Source: Candidatus Saccharimonadota bacterium (GTDB taxonomy: Bacteria > Patescibacteriota > Saccharimonadia > Saccharimonadales > Saccharimonadaceae). Taken from it: a stretch of 64,000 nt of DNA. Numbering within the stretch: position 1 is the first letter of the stretch; every line of letters begins with the position of its first letter. Where the stretch lies: assembly GCA_030528025.1 (NCBI GenBank), contig JAUMZP010000002.1, forward strand, positions 198,930 through 262,929, in the 5' to 3' direction. Under the pieces are notes generated by a model that was not told where the DNA came from, did no database searches, and saw only the letters and a program-made list of their open reading frames with translations. A program made the translations under genes and the position numbers. This document shows positions 26,922 through 56,025 of this stretch, one piece after another.

Positions 26922-27113
26922 TAGCCAGTCGGGGAGTGATAATACGGGGAATGCAAGAGAGGGAAATTGCTCTACCAATGGCCTGCCTTTAAATGTCGTA
27001 CGAGCACCGAAATCAATTTTTTTAATATCATAATAAAATCGGTCGACATGTGTGCTCCGTTCTCTTGTATAAGAGAAGAAAGACAGAGTGAGGTAGCAGC
27101 GCGCTAGTAATAG
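26922..27113 (+). promoter_or_regulatory. Long structured 5' leader of the LysM-CHAP gene
   Basis: The 381-nt gap between mltG and the CHAP gene has no convincing ORF. The predicted leader has a G-rich 5' part, a GAGCAC...GTGCTC long-range pair enclosing CCGA...TCGG, and a perfect 7-bp hairpin TTCTCTT/AAGAGAA with loop GTAT (27060-27077). No T-run follows that hairpin. I cannot match the consensus of the c-di-AMP (ydaO) riboswitch, which controls wall hydrolases in other Gram-positives. Confidence 0.4.
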
Positions 27114-28355
27114 ATGCGCAGGAGAACGATCATTCGTCAACAACAAGCAGCCGAGCAGGCTTCACAACTTGAACTTTCGCCTATTACCGTGCGGAGTCGG
27201 CGCCCGCGACCACTGTATAAGTCATTATCGCCGGTACGGACATCGGCCTATGTGGGGGTTTTTGTCCTAGTGCTTTCACTCGTCGCCATGAGCTATCAGC
27301 CAATTTTGGCAGAAAACACCGCTCTAGCTAGCGCTGCGCCCGTCAGTGCAACGCGCCAGACGGCAGCGACACCATCAGCAGATGGGGTAGATCAGCTCGT
27401 TGCAACCAATGTTGCTACATCAATTGCTGAGAGTACAAATCTGCCTGTCACCAACAACGTTGCCAACCTCTCGCAGTCAATTGCTGCAGAGAACTCGTTT
27501 ACCCAAACGAGTGCCACGACGATTAACAAGCCGCAGATTGTTCAGCCAACAGCTGACAACCGCACTATTAAGAAATACACGACAGTTGCAGGCGATAGTG
27601 TGCCAAGCCTTGCTGATAAGTTCAAAATTAGCACACAGACTATCAAATGGGTTAACAAGCTTACTAGTGATGCGCTTGAGCCGGGCAAAGAGCTGACCAT
27701 TTTGCCAGTCAATGGTATTCTCTACACCGTTAAGGATGGTGATACACTTGATAGCATTGCTGCTAAATACAAAGCAGATAAGAACCAGCTCACTCTCTAC
27801 AACGACCTTGAGTTGACTTCTACCCCTGCTAAGGGTTCGCAGCTTATCATCCCTGATGGCTCGTTGCCAACAGAGGAGCAGCCAGGCTACGTAGCGCCAC
27901 GCTCGGGTGCTGCTGCTCGCGCAGCCAGCGCAACAACTGGTACAAATAGCTACAACGGCACTGGCGCCTACGGTGGTGCTGCTGGTACAGCTCATGCCTG
28001 GACAGGCGGCGGCGACGGTGGTGGCTACGCCTGGGGTAACTGTACTTTCTATGCCTACGAGCGCCGTCTTGAGCTCGGCCGGCCAATCGGCCGCCAGTGG
28101 GGCAATGCTGCTACCTGGGCTAGCTTCGCCCGCGCATCTGGCTACGGTGTCGGCACAACGCCAGCCGTTGGTGCAGTGATGCAAAATGGTGGTGGGTATG
28201 GCCACGTTGCCATTGTCGAGAGTGTTAACCCTGGTGTTTCGGTCACCATTAGCGAGATGAACGGCTTCCGCTGGGGTGGTGGATTCAACCGCGTTGGCTT
28301 CGGTAACATCCCATGGAACGAAGCAGTCGGTGGTCGCTACCAGTACATCTACTAA
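27114..28355 (+). CDS. Anchored LysM-CHAP peptidoglycan hydrolase
   Basis: The protein has 413 aa. A basic cytoplasmic N-terminus is followed by one membrane helix or signal anchor (about 43-66, TSAYVGVFVLVLSLVAMSYQ). A Ser/Thr/Ala linker leads to two LysM domains (about 152-197 KYTTVAGDSVPSLADKFKI; about 200-248 YTVKDGDTLDSIAAKYKA), and then a C-terminal CHAP domain with catalytic Cys310 (YAWGNCTFYAY) and His364 (GYGHVAIVE). CHAP domains are amidases or endopeptidases of peptidoglycan; LysM binds the glycan. It probably trims the cell's own wall, with the upstream mltG; a role against host wall is possible. Confidence 0.9.
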   Translation: MRRRTIIRQQQAAEQASQLELSPITVRSRRPRPLYKSLSPVRTSAYVGVFVLVLSLVAMSYQPILAENTALASAAPVSATRQTAATPSADGVDQLVATNVATSIAESTNLPVTNNVANLSQSIAAENSFTQTSATTINKPQIVQPTADNRTIKKYTTVAGDSVPSLADKFKISTQTIKWVNKLTSDALEPGKELTILPVNGILYTVKDGDTLDSIAAKYKADKNQLTLYNDLELTSTPAKGSQLIIPDGSLPTEEQPGYVAPRSGAAARAASATTGTNSYNGTGAYGGAAGTAHAWTGGGDGGGYAWGNCTFYAYERRLELGRPIGRQWGNAATWASFARASGYGVGTTPAVGAVMQNGGGYGHVAIVESVNPGVSVTISEMNGFRWGGGFNRVGFGNIPWNEAVGGRYQYIY

Positions 28356-48575: not shown

Positions 48576-49778
48576 TCAGTGATTATTCGCCAAAAACGAT
48601 TGCTTAACTTGCTGGTAGGCGTCGCGGAACGGCACACCTTTTTCCACTAATTCATTGATTTTGGCAACAGTATAGAGCTCATCGGTCATCGCCTCAGCCA
48701 ATCGGTCAGTGTTAGCTTCTAGCTCGCTCACGCAGAGTGCCAAGACCTCTAGCGTATTGAGGGCCGAAGTGAAGGCGTCCATGGTGATCTTTTTGGTGAG
48801 TTGTAAGTCGCGGTGATAACCGCTGCCAGCACCTGTCGAAATAGCTTGGAGTTGCAAGGCGTAGTTTGGATAGGCGTGAGCAGTGGCACGCATGATCTCG
48901 AAGACGTCATAGTTACGCTTGTGCGGCATGATGGACGATCCCGTGGTCATGGTGACGGGCAATTTGAAATAGTTAAACTCCTGCGAGGTAAATAGCAACA
49001 TGTCTTCAGCAAATTTGCCAGCAAAGACCATGATTGGGTTGAGCGCCTGCACGGCAATCAGTTCAAAAACGCCACGCGACAGGCCACAGTATATGGGGTT
49101 TTCCTGCACTTTGGCGAAGCCTAGTTCGCTCGTTGTCATCTGGCGGTCAAGTGGTAGGGTAACGCCAAAACCGGCAGCACTACCGAGCGGGTTTTGGTCG
49201 ATGGCGGCAATGCTGTGTGCGACCAATTGCTGGAGGTCATGAAACGCATCGTGATATGAGCCAAGCCACATACCGACGGTAGTAGGCATAGCCTTTTGGG
49301 TGTGGGTGTAGCCAGGCATTTCGGTCTGGCCAATGGCAGCAATTTTGCCAGCATAGGCCTGGGCGACTGCATTCAGCTTGTCCGCTACTGCTTCAAGTTC
49401 CGTTTTGATGAATAGCCGCATCATCACCAAGGCTTGGTCGTTGCGGCTTCGGCCAGTGTGAACCTTTTTGCCAATTGGTCCGAGTTTTTCTGTTAGATAT
49501 AGCTCAATGGCGGTGTGGCCGTCTTCGTGTTCGCTGGTGAGGGTGAAGTCGCCAGTTTTCCATTCGTTGAATAGCTCGTCCAAGGCTGCTGCCAATTGTT
49601 GATATTCATCGCTAGTCAGCACGCCAATTTTTTCTAGCATGTGAGCGTGCGCTTTGGTGGCGGTAATGTCGTGACCGAGTAAGTACTGGTCCAATACCTG
49701 ATCATCACCAATGGTGTATGCCTCGACCAATGGGTGGAGTGAGCCAGTTGCGGTTGATTGCCATAGTTTATTTGCCAT
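48576..49778 (-). CDS. argH: Argininosuccinate lyase
   Basis: The protein has 400 aa, while the family norm is about 460. It splits argininosuccinate into arginine and fumarate. Conserved: HEDGHTAIELYLTEKLG, VHTGRSRNDQ, PGYTHTQKAMPTT, DQNPLGSAAGFG and the mobile signature loop TGSSIMPHKRNYDVFE with the catalytic Ser (usually SSIMPQKKNPD). The C-terminal domain is shortened. It overlaps argG by 11 nt. Confidence 0.93.
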   Translation of the reverse strand: MANKLWQSTATGSLHPLVEAYTIGDDQVLDQYLLGHDITATKAHAHMLEKIGVLTSDEYQQLAAALDELFNEWKTGDFTLTSEHEDGHTAIELYLTEKLGPIGKKVHTGRSRNDQALVMMRLFIKTELEAVADKLNAVAQAYAGKIAAIGQTEMPGYTHTQKAMPTTVGMWLGSYHDAFHDLQQLVAHSIAAIDQNPLGSAAGFGVTLPLDRQMTTSELGFAKVQENPIYCGLSRGVFELIAVQALNPIMVFAGKFAEDMLLFTSQEFNYFKLPVTMTTGSSIMPHKRNYDVFEIMRATAHAYPNYALQLQAISTGAGSGYHRDLQLTKKITMDAFTSALNTLEVLALCVSELEANTDRLAEAMTDELYTVAKINELVEKGVPFRDAYQQVKQSFLANNH

Positions 49779-51030
49779 ATGAGTATGCTCCTTCAGCTGT
49801 TCGCTGACTTAATGAATATAATTCAATGAATCCGGCGGACGAATTCTGGTTGAATGCGTCGTTGGAATCAAAGGTTGCAAGATTGATATCAAACAACGAA
49901 TGTGGTGAGTCCACACTGACGACGGTGATGGTACCTTTGTATAGGCGGACCGTCACTGTGCCGGTGACTTTTTGATTCTGGTCATCAATATAGGCATTGA
50001 TGTGATGGACGGCTGGCTCGTACCACTGAGCTGCGTAGGTGAGGTAGGCCCATTTTTTGTCCATTTCGGCTTTGAGCTCATTTTCAACACGGGTCGAGAC
50101 CAATTGTTCAAGCTTTTGATGGGCAGCAATCAAGATGGCAGCACCAGGGTTTTCGTAGACACCACGCACCTTCAGCCCAACCAGCCGATCTTCAATAAGA
50201 GTTGATACGCCGACGCCGTGTTTGCGGCCGAGCTGGTTGCAGTGCTGAATGAGTGCCTGAAGTGAAAAGTGACGATTATCGACAGCAACAGGCACACCTT
50301 TGATGAATTCAATGGTGATATCTTCGGCTTCGTCTGGTGTGTATTTGATGGTTGAGCACCAATTAAGAATGGCATGATAATTTGGTTTGAGTGATGGTGA
50401 TTCAATTTCGCCGCCTTCGCTGGTGATGCCCCACATATTTTCATCGGTCGAGTAGGGCGATTCCTGGGTGTGTGGTACGGGGATGTTGTGTTTCTTGGCA
50501 TAGGCAAGTTCTTCCTCTCGGCCCATACTCCACTCACGTACCGGTGCTAAGATCTTGAGGTTAGGGTTGAGCGTGGTGATGTAAGTTTCGAAGCGAACTT
50601 GGTCGTTTCCTTTACCGGTGGCACCATGTGCGATGACTGTGCAGTTGTACTTTTCGGCATATTCGACGGCTAATTGCGAGATAATGATGCGCCCCAGTGG
50701 CGTGCAGAGGGCATAGCCACCTTGATAATCAGCATTGGCTTTGATTGCCAGTGATAGTAGCTCATCGGCGAAGCGGTCGCGGGCGTCAACCGTGATGGTT
50801 TCTATAGCGCCGAGCGTTTTGGCCTTTTCGGCGATGGCGTCGAGATCGTCAACAGTCTGGCCAATATTAACCGTGAGGGTGATGACGCTGCAGTTATATT
50901 TTTCTTGGAGCCACTTAAGCATGACGGATGTGTCGAGGCCTCCTGAATAGAGTAAGAGGCACGTGTCAAACTCGCCATTTGTCGCCTCGTGGCTGGCAAC
51001 TTTAGTGTAGTGAGGTGTGTCGTGATTCAT
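49768..51030 (-). CDS. argG: Argininosuccinate synthase
   Basis: The protein has 420 aa. It joins citrulline and aspartate using ATP. LLLYSGGLDTSVMLKWL is the PP-loop; also AHGATGKGNDQVRFE, REWSMGREEELAYAKKHNIPVP, YSTDENMWGITSEGGEIE and GVGVSTLIEDRLVGLKVRGVYE. Length is normal. AGGAAGG precedes the start. Only the last two steps of arginine synthesis are here, so citrulline must come from elsewhere. Expression is controlled by the attenuator between 51051 and 51169. Confidence 0.95.
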   Translation of the reverse strand: MNHDTPHYTKVASHEATNGEFDTCLLLYSGGLDTSVMLKWLQEKYNCSVITLTVNIGQTVDDLDAIAEKAKTLGAIETITVDARDRFADELLSLAIKANADYQGGYALCTPLGRIIISQLAVEYAEKYNCTVIAHGATGKGNDQVRFETYITTLNPNLKILAPVREWSMGREEELAYAKKHNIPVPHTQESPYSTDENMWGITSEGGEIESPSLKPNYHAILNWCSTIKYTPDEAEDITIEFIKGVPVAVDNRHFSLQALIQHCNQLGRKHGVGVSTLIEDRLVGLKVRGVYENPGAAILIAAHQKLEQLVSTRVENELKAEMDKKWAYLTYAAQWYEPAVHHINAYIDDQNQKVTGTVTVRLYKGTITVVSVDSPHSLFDINLATFDSNDAFNQNSSAGFIELYSLSQRTAEGAYSYGK

Positions 51031-51050
51031 ATCCTTCCTTTCTATAATAA

Positions 51051-51081
51051 TTAAAAAGAGCCGCTCGGATGAGGGCTCTTT
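51051..51081 (-). terminator. Attenuator terminator upstream of argG
   Basis: On the minus strand AAAGAGCC and GGCTCTTT form an 8-bp stem whose 11-nt loop contains a further CTC/GAG pair, followed by a run of U. It lies between the Arg-rich leader peptide and the argG ribosome-binding site, so it must be read through for argGH expression. Its 5' arm (AGCCCTC) is perfectly complementary to GAGGGCT at the end of the leader ORF. Confidence 0.88.
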
Positions 51082-51106
51082 CGTTGGTTTTATACTATAC
51101 GACTAA

Positions 51107-51169
51107 TTAGCCCTCTGAATCAGAGCGGCGACGACGAGCAACGATAACGATGTTGTGTCGATATGTCAT
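51107..51169 (-). CDS. Arginine leader peptide of the argGH attenuator
   Basis: A 20-codon ORF, MTYRHNIVIVARRRRSDSEG, with four consecutive Arg codons (CGT CGT CGC CGC) and a fifth Arg near its start. TATGGT (51181-51176) stands 6 nt before its ATG and TTGTGA (51205-51200) is a plausible -35, so the peptide starts at the 5' end of the mRNA. Just after the Arg codons, CTCTGA/TCAGAG forms a small hairpin (segments 1:2); GAGGGCT in segment 2 can pair with AGCCCTC in the terminator arm (2:3). Ribosome stalling on Arg codons would cover segment 1 and favour 2:3, preventing termination. Confidence 0.88.
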   Translation of the reverse strand: MTYRHNIVIVARRRRSDSEG

Positions 51170-51311
51170 ACTAACACCATAGCACACCGCGCATATTTTT
51201 CACAATACTTTTCATATAAAATTGCGGTGCGCTACAATAGTCATATACATTGGTATGACGAGGGGATAAAATTGTGCAGCAATATAACAAAGAAGCGCCT
51301 AGTATGGACGT

Positions 51312-51974
51312 ATGAGTGGACGAGCAGTGAATATTCTCCTCGTTGAAGACGAACCAACCCTCCGAGCTGGTACAAAGCAGTTCCTCGCGCAGCGCGGCTT
51401 TACGGTGATAGTAGCATCCAGCGGCGAGGAGACGCTGGAGAGATTTGCCGAGGCGGACGCTATCATCCTCGATATTATGCTGCCAGGGATGAGCGGGATC
51501 GAGGTGCTGCACAAATTCGCCAGACGAGCGACGTGCCGGTACTCATGCTGACGGCACTACATGATGAGCCGACACAGATCGCTAGTTTTGACGAGCTGGC
51601 GGATGACTATATGAGTAAGCCATTTTCGCTCGTGATTTTGGAAAAGCGAATTAAGGCGCTGCTGCGCCGCCAGCAACCCACCGTAACCTTATGGCGGCGC
51701 GGCCTGGCCTCGGTGGATTTTGCCGCCTATCAAGGGTTTTATGATAATACTGACGCGCACCTCAAGCCTAAGGAAGTACAGCTCCTCAAGCTGCTGGTGG
51801 ATAATCCAAATATAGTCTGGAGCCGGCAGGCTATTATCGACCGGCTGTGGCGCGATGACGAGGTGCCGTTCGACCGGGTGATCGATGTCTACATCAAAAA
51901 ACCTGCGCAAGAAATTGCACCTCGACTGCATTATCAAGGTGAAGGGAGTGGGCTATCGCTATGAAGCGGCTTAA
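51312..51974 (+). pseudogene. OmpR-type response regulator, two frameshifts
   Basis: The receiver domain starts normally (VNILLVEDEPTLRAGTKQFLAQRGF, phosphoacceptor in AIILDIMLPGMSG), then loses a base near 51515-51530 and resumes in another frame (VPVLMLTALHDE, DDYMSKPFSLVILEKRIKALLRR). The winged-helix output domain follows (LKPKEVQLLKLLVDNPNIVWSRQAIIDRLW, FDRVIDVYIK). A second shift in an A6 run (51896-51901) scrambles the last 25 residues; in the other frame the correct end NLRKKLHL...VKGVGYRYEAA appears and stops at 51974, overlapping the kinase start. Both shifts are single-base. Confidence 0.85.
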
Positions 51975-53346
51975 ATTATTTCCCAAAACGTTTTTGGTAT
52001 CGATCGGCCTATTCGCGGCGTTGATCATCCTGGTGCATGCGCTGGTCTACACCTTGATGCCGCAATTTTATCTGCAGCAAAAAGAGCGCGAGGCGGCTGA
52101 TAATCTCACGGTGCTGACGACCAAGCTGCACGGTAAATCTACCGAGGGGATGAGTCGCCTGAGCCAAGAGTTTGCTACCATGAATAACGTTAATATCACA
52201 CTAACGATCAATGGGCACGACCAATATTTTCAGGGCTTTGAGTCGATCAATATCGTGACGGATAGCGGCAAACCGGTCGACACCAGCGTAGTAAAAATTG
52301 CTGATGGCCAGACGGTCGATCCGCGCTCGGTGATTTTGCAGCAGGGTAGTGTGACGGATAAACAGGGATGAGCGATCGCAGTCAAGCTACTGGCTGACGT
52401 AGCGCCTGTCACTCAGGCCAAACTCGCCACGCTGCACGTATTGCCCTATACCATGCTTGGCTCGCTACTGGTAGCACTGTTGTTTTCGTACATCTGCAGC
52501 CGCTTTGTGACACGGCTGATTCGCCAGATGGCCGCGGTGGCGACGACCATGCAGCGGCTGGAAAAGGACGCGCACTATCCAGTACGGAGCAGTGATGAAA
52601 TCGGCGTGCTGGGGCGAAATATTAATGAGCTCTATCAAAATCTGTGGCAAACAATACGCTCGCTAGAACATGAAAATAAACGGATCACCCAGCTAGAAAA
52701 GGAAAAAATCGCTTTCCTGCGCGCAGCCTCGCATGAGCTAAAAACGCCACTAGCGGCCCTCAGGATTATGCTTGAGAATATGCAACTCAACATCGGCGAA
52801 TATAAAAATCGTGACCAGTACCTGGCGGAATCGGTGGTGCAGGTTGACCGTGTGGCGGCAATGGTGAATGACGTTTTGCGCTCTGGCAGCGCGGCCGAGC
52901 AGGCTTTGCACCAAGAGGAGCGGCTGACGGTCGATACGATGATTGCCGAGGTGGTTGACGATTATACGCTGCTGGCGAAAACGCGCGGCATGACGTTCGC
53001 GGTTAACACGCAGCCTACGACCATTTACGCAAACCGTGACATGATGCACTACGTTATCTCGAACTCGGTATCAAATGCGGTACGCCACGGTGACGCTAGG
53101 AGTGTGATAAAAATTACTTGTGACCAGCATGAACTAGCTATTGAAAACGCCTGCCAGCCACTTACCAAGTAGCAGCTCCAGTACATCTTCGATCCGTTTT
53201 ATCGCACGTCTGGTAGCGCGAAGCAGCACGCTGACAGTAGCGGCATCGGCCTCTACACCGTAAAGATGCTACTCGACGCCAAGGGTCTAGACTACGACTT
53301 CACGCTGCACGGGCAGGGTATGCGGTTTGTGGTCACATTATCCTAG
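51961..53346 (+). pseudogene. VanS/BceS-like sensor histidine kinase, two in-frame stops
   Basis: One continuous frame of 461 codons holds TGA at 52369-52371 (KQG*AIAVKLL) and TAG at 53170-53172 (CQPLTK*QLQYIFDPFY). Domains: membrane helix 1 (FLVSIGLFAALIILVHALVY), an outer sensor of about 120 residues, helix 2 (MLGSLLVALLFSYI), HAMP, the dimerisation box LRAASHELKTPLAALR with the phosphorylated His, and an ATPase domain with ISNSVSNAVRHGD (N box), DPFYRTS (F box) and SSGIGLYTVKML (G box). Without readthrough the sensor and the ATP-binding end are lost. Paired with the broken regulator upstream. Confidence 0.85.
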
Positions 53347-55370: not shown

Positions 55371-56025
55371 ATGTCACTACTTACATTACACGATATCGTT
55401 TATTCATACCCAGGCGACACCAGCAACGTGCTGAATGGTATTAATTATCACTTTGAAAAGGGCACATTCTACGCCATCGTCGGTAGTTCTGGGGGCTGGC
55501 AAGTCGACCCTACTCGGGCTCCTAGCAGGGCTAGACACGCCGACCGGCGGGCAGATTTTGTTTGATGATAAAGGCATCGCCGAGCAGGGGTACTCGCATC
55601 ATCGCAAGCACAACATCTCGCTGGTGTTTCAGAATTATAATCTGATCGATTATCTGACACCGCTAGAAAACTTAAAATTGGTTAATGCCAAGGCTACCAA
55701 CGAAACGCTATATGCCATGGGGCTCGACGACGATCATATCAATCGCAACGTTATGAAACTGTCTGGCGGCCAGCAACAACGCGTGGCGATCGACCGAGCG
55801 CTGGTGTCCTCCGCACCGATCATCTTGGCGGACGAGCCAACTGGCAATCTGGACGAAGCTACCGCTGCGGATATCATCACTATCCTGCGCCAAGCCGCCC
55901 ACGAAAACAACAAATGCGTCATCGTCGTCACTCACAGCAAACAGCTCGCTAAAGGGGTGGATGTGGTGTTGACGCTCAAAGACAAAATGCTTCGGCCCAG
56001 CAAGAACAATAAAAGGCGTAGCTAG
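55371..56025 (+). pseudogene. ABC transporter ATPase, single-base shift in Walker A
   Basis: LTLHDIVYSYPGDTSNVLNGINYHFEKGTFYAIVGSSG continues, after one extra G in the G5 run at 55491-55495, in the second frame as AGKSTLLGLLAGLDTPTGGQILFDDKGI. The rest is intact: VFQNYNLIDYLTPLENL (Q loop), LSGGQQQRVAIDRAL (signature) and PIILADEPTGNLDEATA (Walker B). MacB/LolD/BceA type. With four G the gene would encode a normal protein of about 217 aa, so this is either an error, a switchable run or a very recent loss. Confidence 0.85.

Follow-up and report, generated by a model that had tools for sequence, protein, structure and literature searches.

A putative ribosome-mediated arginine attenuator upstream of argGH in Saccharibacteria

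Upstream of the argGH genes of a Saccharibacterial genome, on the minus strand of the 64,000-nucleotide stretch analysed here (the window), a short open reading frame with consecutive arginine codons is followed by an intrinsic terminator. The question raised by this locus is whether it works as an attenuator of the trp/his type, with charged tRNA-Arg as the signal, as proposed in a preliminary description made from the letters of the window. The locus was analysed in the window, in related genomes and in other lineages of the candidate phyla radiation (CPR).

Anatomy of the leader locus

The order of the RNA elements on the minus strand, between 51205 and 51049, was confirmed: a promoter-like site, a short ORF, a set of mutually exclusive pairings and a terminator, followed by argG and argH. 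The promoter-like site is inferred from the sequence and consists of a weak -35-like hexamer, TTGTGA (51200..51205), located 18 nt upstream of an extended -10-like element, TG-C-TATGGT (hexamer at 51176..51181), which in turn lies 6 nt upstream of the leader ATG, where the preliminary description had placed it. The leader ORF, MTYRHNIVIVARRRRSDSEG followed by a stop, spans 20 codons (51107..51169), from the ATG at 51169 to the TAA ending at 51107, and has no Shine-Dalgarno sequence. It contains the expected four tandem Arg codons, CGT CGT CGC CGC, at 51125..51136.

Three pairings can be drawn downstream of this run. Segment 1 (51121..51129) overlaps the last Arg codons and is the partner of segment 2 in the 1:2 hairpin. 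Segment 2, GAGGGCT (51109..51115), overlaps the stop codon and, as indicated by covariation with segment 3, forms the 5' strand of the antiterminator. Segment 3, AGCCCTC (51071..51077), is identified by pairing and covariation, and alternates between the antiterminator, formed with segment 2, and the 5' arm of the terminator. The terminator (3:4) extends over 51054..51082, from GAAAGAGCC to GGCTCTTTT (its arms may also be written AAAGAGCC...GGCTCTTTT), folds at -15.8 kcal/mol, is followed by a U-run and is also backed by the pairing found in relatives. Both 2:3 and 3:4 are thus present as first described. The 1:2 hairpin is also present, in a form different from the proposed CTCTGA/TCAGAG, which would leave a loop of one base; the corrected hairpin pairs CTCTG with CAGAG around a 3-nt loop, and adds GCC/GGC.

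The first gene after the terminator, argG (49768..51030), encodes a 420-aa argininosuccinate synthase (TIGR00032, 444 bits) and, as already noted in the preliminary description, has a ribosome-binding site of its own, AAGGAAGG (51031..51040), upstream of the start at 51030. Its end is overlapped by argH (48576..49778), assigned by sequence to argininosuccinate lyase and used as the query for finding argH in relatives. On the other side of the leader, divergent from argGH, a response regulator (51312-51964, plus strand) and a histidine kinase (51961-53172, plus strand) are each split over two frames, either as pseudogenes or because of indels in the assembly, and the same is seen in an ABC ATPase at 55371-56025. 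The window genome is Saccharibacterial, as it carries a lysM-TM7 RNA and its closest argG relatives are recorded as Candidatus Saccharibacteria. The lysM-TM7 RNA, a known cis-regulatory family of Saccharibacteria (RF03005), is found at 26981-27124 on the plus strand with 120 bits.

Taken alone, the window shows a leader pattern only modestly beyond chance. A loose scan for attenuator patterns found four sites, this one and three others, and dinucleotide-shuffled windows produced about 0.8 such patterns per 64 kb. The 2:3 pairing of the leader compared with its own shuffles reached a p-value of 0.004, and the fold of the whole leader a z-score of -1.8. It is recurrence in related genomes, and not the statistics of the single window, that makes the arrangement certain.

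Recurrence and helix conservation in Saccharimonadales

A true argG gene was found in 10 of the 295 genomes of the family set, and in nine of these the region upstream of it contains both a terminator and a short ORF that includes an Arg run. The cultured Saccharibacterium TM7x has no argG (PMC12815258). The order-wide set of argG carriers is a union of 28 Saccharimonadales genomes. The search for such ORFs and terminators in relatives, suggested with the initial proposal, was positive in 16 of the 28, the leader being followed there by argG, by argH-argG-argS, or by a GNAT-like gene and argG-argH. The remaining genomes include one with a T-box-like leader (G396), ten without a leader and one in which the region was masked. 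In one genome (G411) argG has no leader, and a leader precedes a separate argH-argF-argJ-argB operon. The longer argG type of family f31 (about 550 aa; L112, L114, L117, L118, L125, L126) is found without a leader; at two loci with this long type (L147, L148), argG is followed by a gene judged by eye to be amidinohydrolase-like. Leader ORFs related to that of the window were identified at 33 other Saccharimonadales loci, and a cluster of Arg codons, exclusively of the CGN type, occurs in all 37 leaders tested.

Conservation of the helices was evaluated on the 16 argG leaders. The 2:3 duplex is better than that of shuffles of the same region in 14 of them at p<0.02, for a combined p of about 6e-22. 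A first alignment by MAFFT (A1) misaligned the terminator arms, and was replaced by an N-padded one, anchored by hand on segments 2-4 (A2) and therefore biased towards the structures. In the latter, 95.5% of the cells of the terminator helix are paired, against 30-66% in slid controls, and 89.4% of those of the antiterminator helix, against 45-47%; since the alignment was anchored by hand, the slid controls and the compensatory double changes, present in 8 of 10 antiterminator pairs, outweigh the pairing percentages. The comparison indicates that terminator and antiterminator helices are mutually exclusive and maintained by compensatory changes. The 1:2 hairpin, between the first Arg codons and segment 2, was evaluated in 21 leaders of one type, where 84.8% of the cells are paired (29-54% in slid controls) and only three pairs covary; its support is below that of 2:3 and 3:4.

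These data bear on the simplest alternative, that a chance short ORF stands before an ordinary terminator with no regulatory role. The number of patterns generated by shuffled windows under the loose scan would agree with it, but it is refuted by conservation: the arrangement recurs at 34 Saccharimonadales loci, most of them arginine genes, and its exclusive helices covary, which leaves this alternative a practically negligible probability. A lack of both the Arg run and the compensating 2:3 pairing at homologous loci, indicated beforehand as evidence against attenuation, is not the pattern seen across the 28 argG genomes, 16 of which have the leader. The Arg run, the terminator and the compensating 2:3 pairing, all kept in related argG loci, support the reading as an arginine attenuator of the trp/his type.

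The mode of translation initiation was also addressed in the collected leaders. The best -10 hexamer lies 6-7 nt upstream of the leader ATG in 25 of 37 leaders, and the mean Shine-Dalgarno pairing is -0.8 kcal/mol at leader starts vs -5.5 at the next gene. As suggested in the preliminary description, the leader ORF is probably leaderless, with a transcript starting at or beside the ATG. Leader ORFs at the 5' end of the transcript have precedents in the attenuators of Sinorhizobium and Corynebacterium, namely trpL of S. meliloti (PMC7298713), with Trp codons, and the ilvBNC leader of C. glutamicum (PMC11857589), with branched-chain codons, both from other phyla; compared with these, leaderlessness is here deduced only from promoter spacing.

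Switch geometry and the nature of the signal

In the 16 leaders, the first two Arg codons are found 10-22 nt upstream of segment 2, near the downstream limit of the ribosome footprint, and the stop codon lies from just before to about 29 nt past the start of segment 2. The effect of ribosome position was modelled with a footprint from -18 to +12 relative to the A-site, and the probability of 2:3 was computed before the 3' arm of the terminator exists. The median is 0.87 for a ribosome stalled at Arg vs 0.05 for a ribosome at the stop codon; 36 of 37 leaders shift as expected, and the modelled switch fails in one (G030). The low value at the stop codon implies that in the footprint model a ribosome in that position is sufficient to free the terminator, without 1:2. 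The role of 1:2 would accordingly be reduced: the hairpin would not be essential to the switch, because segment 2 would already be covered by the ribosome that has reached the stop codon.

On these grounds the leader, with high probability, controls argGH through ribosome-mediated transcription attenuation in response to charged tRNA-Arg. RNA polymerase would start at or beside the leader ATG, and a ribosome would follow on the leaderless mRNA. When Arg-tRNA is scarce, the ribosome would stall at the Arg run, with a footprint covering segment 1 and ending just short of segment 2, so that 2:3 could form before the 3' arm of the terminator is made, and argGH would be transcribed. When Arg-tRNA is ample, the ribosome would reach the stop codon, in or just beyond segment 2, and cover this segment, and 3:4 would terminate transcription. 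If translation did not take place, the 1:2 hairpin could occupy segment 2. Equilibrium folding of the ribosome-free RNA allows 2:3 as well in many leaders (mean 0.75), and default termination without translation is therefore not clearly predicted.

This behaviour of the free RNA, together with the fact that any ribosome stalled upstream uncovers segment 2, would also suit a real terminator whose input is general translation or the stringent state, the Arg codons just making the leader slow. The control codons, however, are always Arg at arginine-linked loci, and Trp-Trp is found before trpS in another CPR order, which makes a general input very improbable. A sensor based on an arrest peptide, in which the ribosome would be halted by the nascent Arg-rich peptide in combination with a ligand such as free arginine, as in TnaC or SpeFL, was considered because leaders of one subgroup share the pattern RR-S-x-R-I-x-G-(S/G)-C. 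The shared residues, however, coincide with bases that take part in the 1:2 and 2:3 helices, the third Arg is preceded by different residues (S, Y, D, N, H or P), and f1 leaders have only the Arg run in common; moreover, biosynthetic genes and argS are expected to be induced by scarcity. Such a sensor appears improbable.

A sensor of charged tRNA-Arg would fit the physiology that can be read from the genomes. The arginine repressor ArgR (PF01316) was not found in the window genome (G000, 98.6% complete), where arginine deiminase and ornithine carbamoyltransferase genes stand side by side; in four relatives arcA is divergent from or near argGH. If argGH were left on alongside the deiminase pathway, a futile citrulline-arginine cycle would waste ATP, and restricting argGH expression to times of Arg-tRNA shortage would thus make sense.

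Further arginine leaders and their significance

A covariance model was built from the 16 argG leaders and used for searches by RNA pattern alone. In the 295 family genomes, strong matches were found at argG only; weaker partial-model matches (20-27 bits) turned out to be plain gene-end terminators in the cases inspected. The leader of the window, a divergent member, scored 22.8 bits with model R1 and 33.3 bits with model R2, both models having been trained with it. Among 393 genomes of the order, 18 further leaders (31-61 bits) were found upstream of other genes, bringing the Saccharimonadales loci to 34. Two other order-level matches (L228, L229), lacking Arg codons and located before apparent infC/rplT genes, were discarded. 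The genes behind the further leaders, identified by Pfam for ten examples and by eye for the others, are argS, with or without a GNAT or argB-like gene, the argH-argF-argJ-argB operon, Asp/Glu racemase-like genes (PF01177) and GNAT-like genes with AstE/AspA-like ones. Since the search used the RNA pattern only, argS and the arginine operon behind matches are independent support for arginine as the signal. The PF01177 racemase-like genes follow strong Arg leaders in five genomes (L211, L215, L220, L222, L227), with no obvious adjoining arginine gene. The pairs of GNAT-like and AstE/AspA-like deacylase genes (L214, L216, L221) perhaps supply arginine, or a precursor of it, by deacylation.

In other CPR families, Arg leaders precede argG in four genomes (G558, G571, G723, G699) and a GNAT-like gene with argG in a fifth (G551); a candidate in G500 (L249), with Arg codons and no clear terminator, was not counted. 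Outside Saccharibacteria, 78 argG loci were searched with the covariance model; no score exceeded 19.1 bits, and the best match (L072) is a terminator ending the preceding gene. An ORF with Trp-Trp, MTNTYQQIKFSWWRHSK, followed by a terminator, was observed upstream of trpS in another CPR order (L245, G541), and is a probable Trp attenuator. Upstream of a 306-aa gene (L232, G324), a terminator that may have a segment-2 pairing was seen, along with a short ORF containing dispersed Trp codons.

T-box leaders (RF00230) likewise sense tRNA charging and control a terminator, but have no leader peptide, the tRNA binding the RNA directly, and their antiterminator has a bulge for the tRNA acceptor end. 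No match to RF00230 was obtained in the window at the gathering threshold. T-box-like leaders, both below the gathering threshold, were found upstream of argH/argG in G396 (L132, 32.7 bits, with the AGAGUGGUACCGCG motif present) and upstream of argG in another CPR genome (L261, G692, 52.4 bits). In Actinobacteria, arginine operons are reported to show no conserved RNA element, and T-boxes are cited for arginine control at the RNA level (PMC1262725).

The mechanism itself is of the classical type. The trp, his, leu, thr and phe attenuators of Proteobacteria, and those of trp and leuS in Actinobacteria (PMC1262725), are built alike, from a short leader ORF in which codons for the end product stand in tandem, three pairings that exclude one another, an intrinsic terminator and a stop codon at segment 2; they differ in the control codons, which here are Arg. 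As far as can be judged at sequence level, the leaders appear to share all testable features of a classical ribosome-mediated attenuator apart from 1:2. The uORFC-8-2 cysS motif of Rhodobacterales (PMC8632094) likewise places a leader-peptide attenuator, with two codons in tandem, before a tRNA-synthetase gene, although with Cys codons and in Alphaproteobacteria. The leaders that were compared with Rfam matched none of its families. Literature searches found no paper joining the candidate phyla radiation with transcription attenuation, nor one that treats arginyl-tRNA synthetase together with the leader peptide of an attenuator; in papers on both arginine and ribosome-mediated attenuation, titles and opening parts of abstracts, from a literature covering few subscription journals, mentioned no arginine attenuator. 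Arginine specificity and a CPR regulon of this kind thus appear undescribed.

It is somewhat probable that CPR bacteria without a recognisable ArgR run their whole arginine regulon by leaderless Arg-codon attenuators (argGH, argS, argB-like, argHFJB, racemase, GNAT and AstE-like genes), with T-boxes instead in some lineages, and that the racemase, GNAT and AstE-like genes are missing steps of arginine supply. Such a regulon flags the Asp/Glu racemase-like, GNAT and AstE/AspA-like genes as having probable arginine-related functions. Gene regulation has hardly been studied in CPR bacteria, and the attenuator would provide a compact sensor of tRNA-Arg in reduced genomes. In Saccharibacteria it is tied to an arginine metabolism, comprising arginine deiminase, ornithine carbamoyltransferase and argGH, that shapes the relation between parasite and host.
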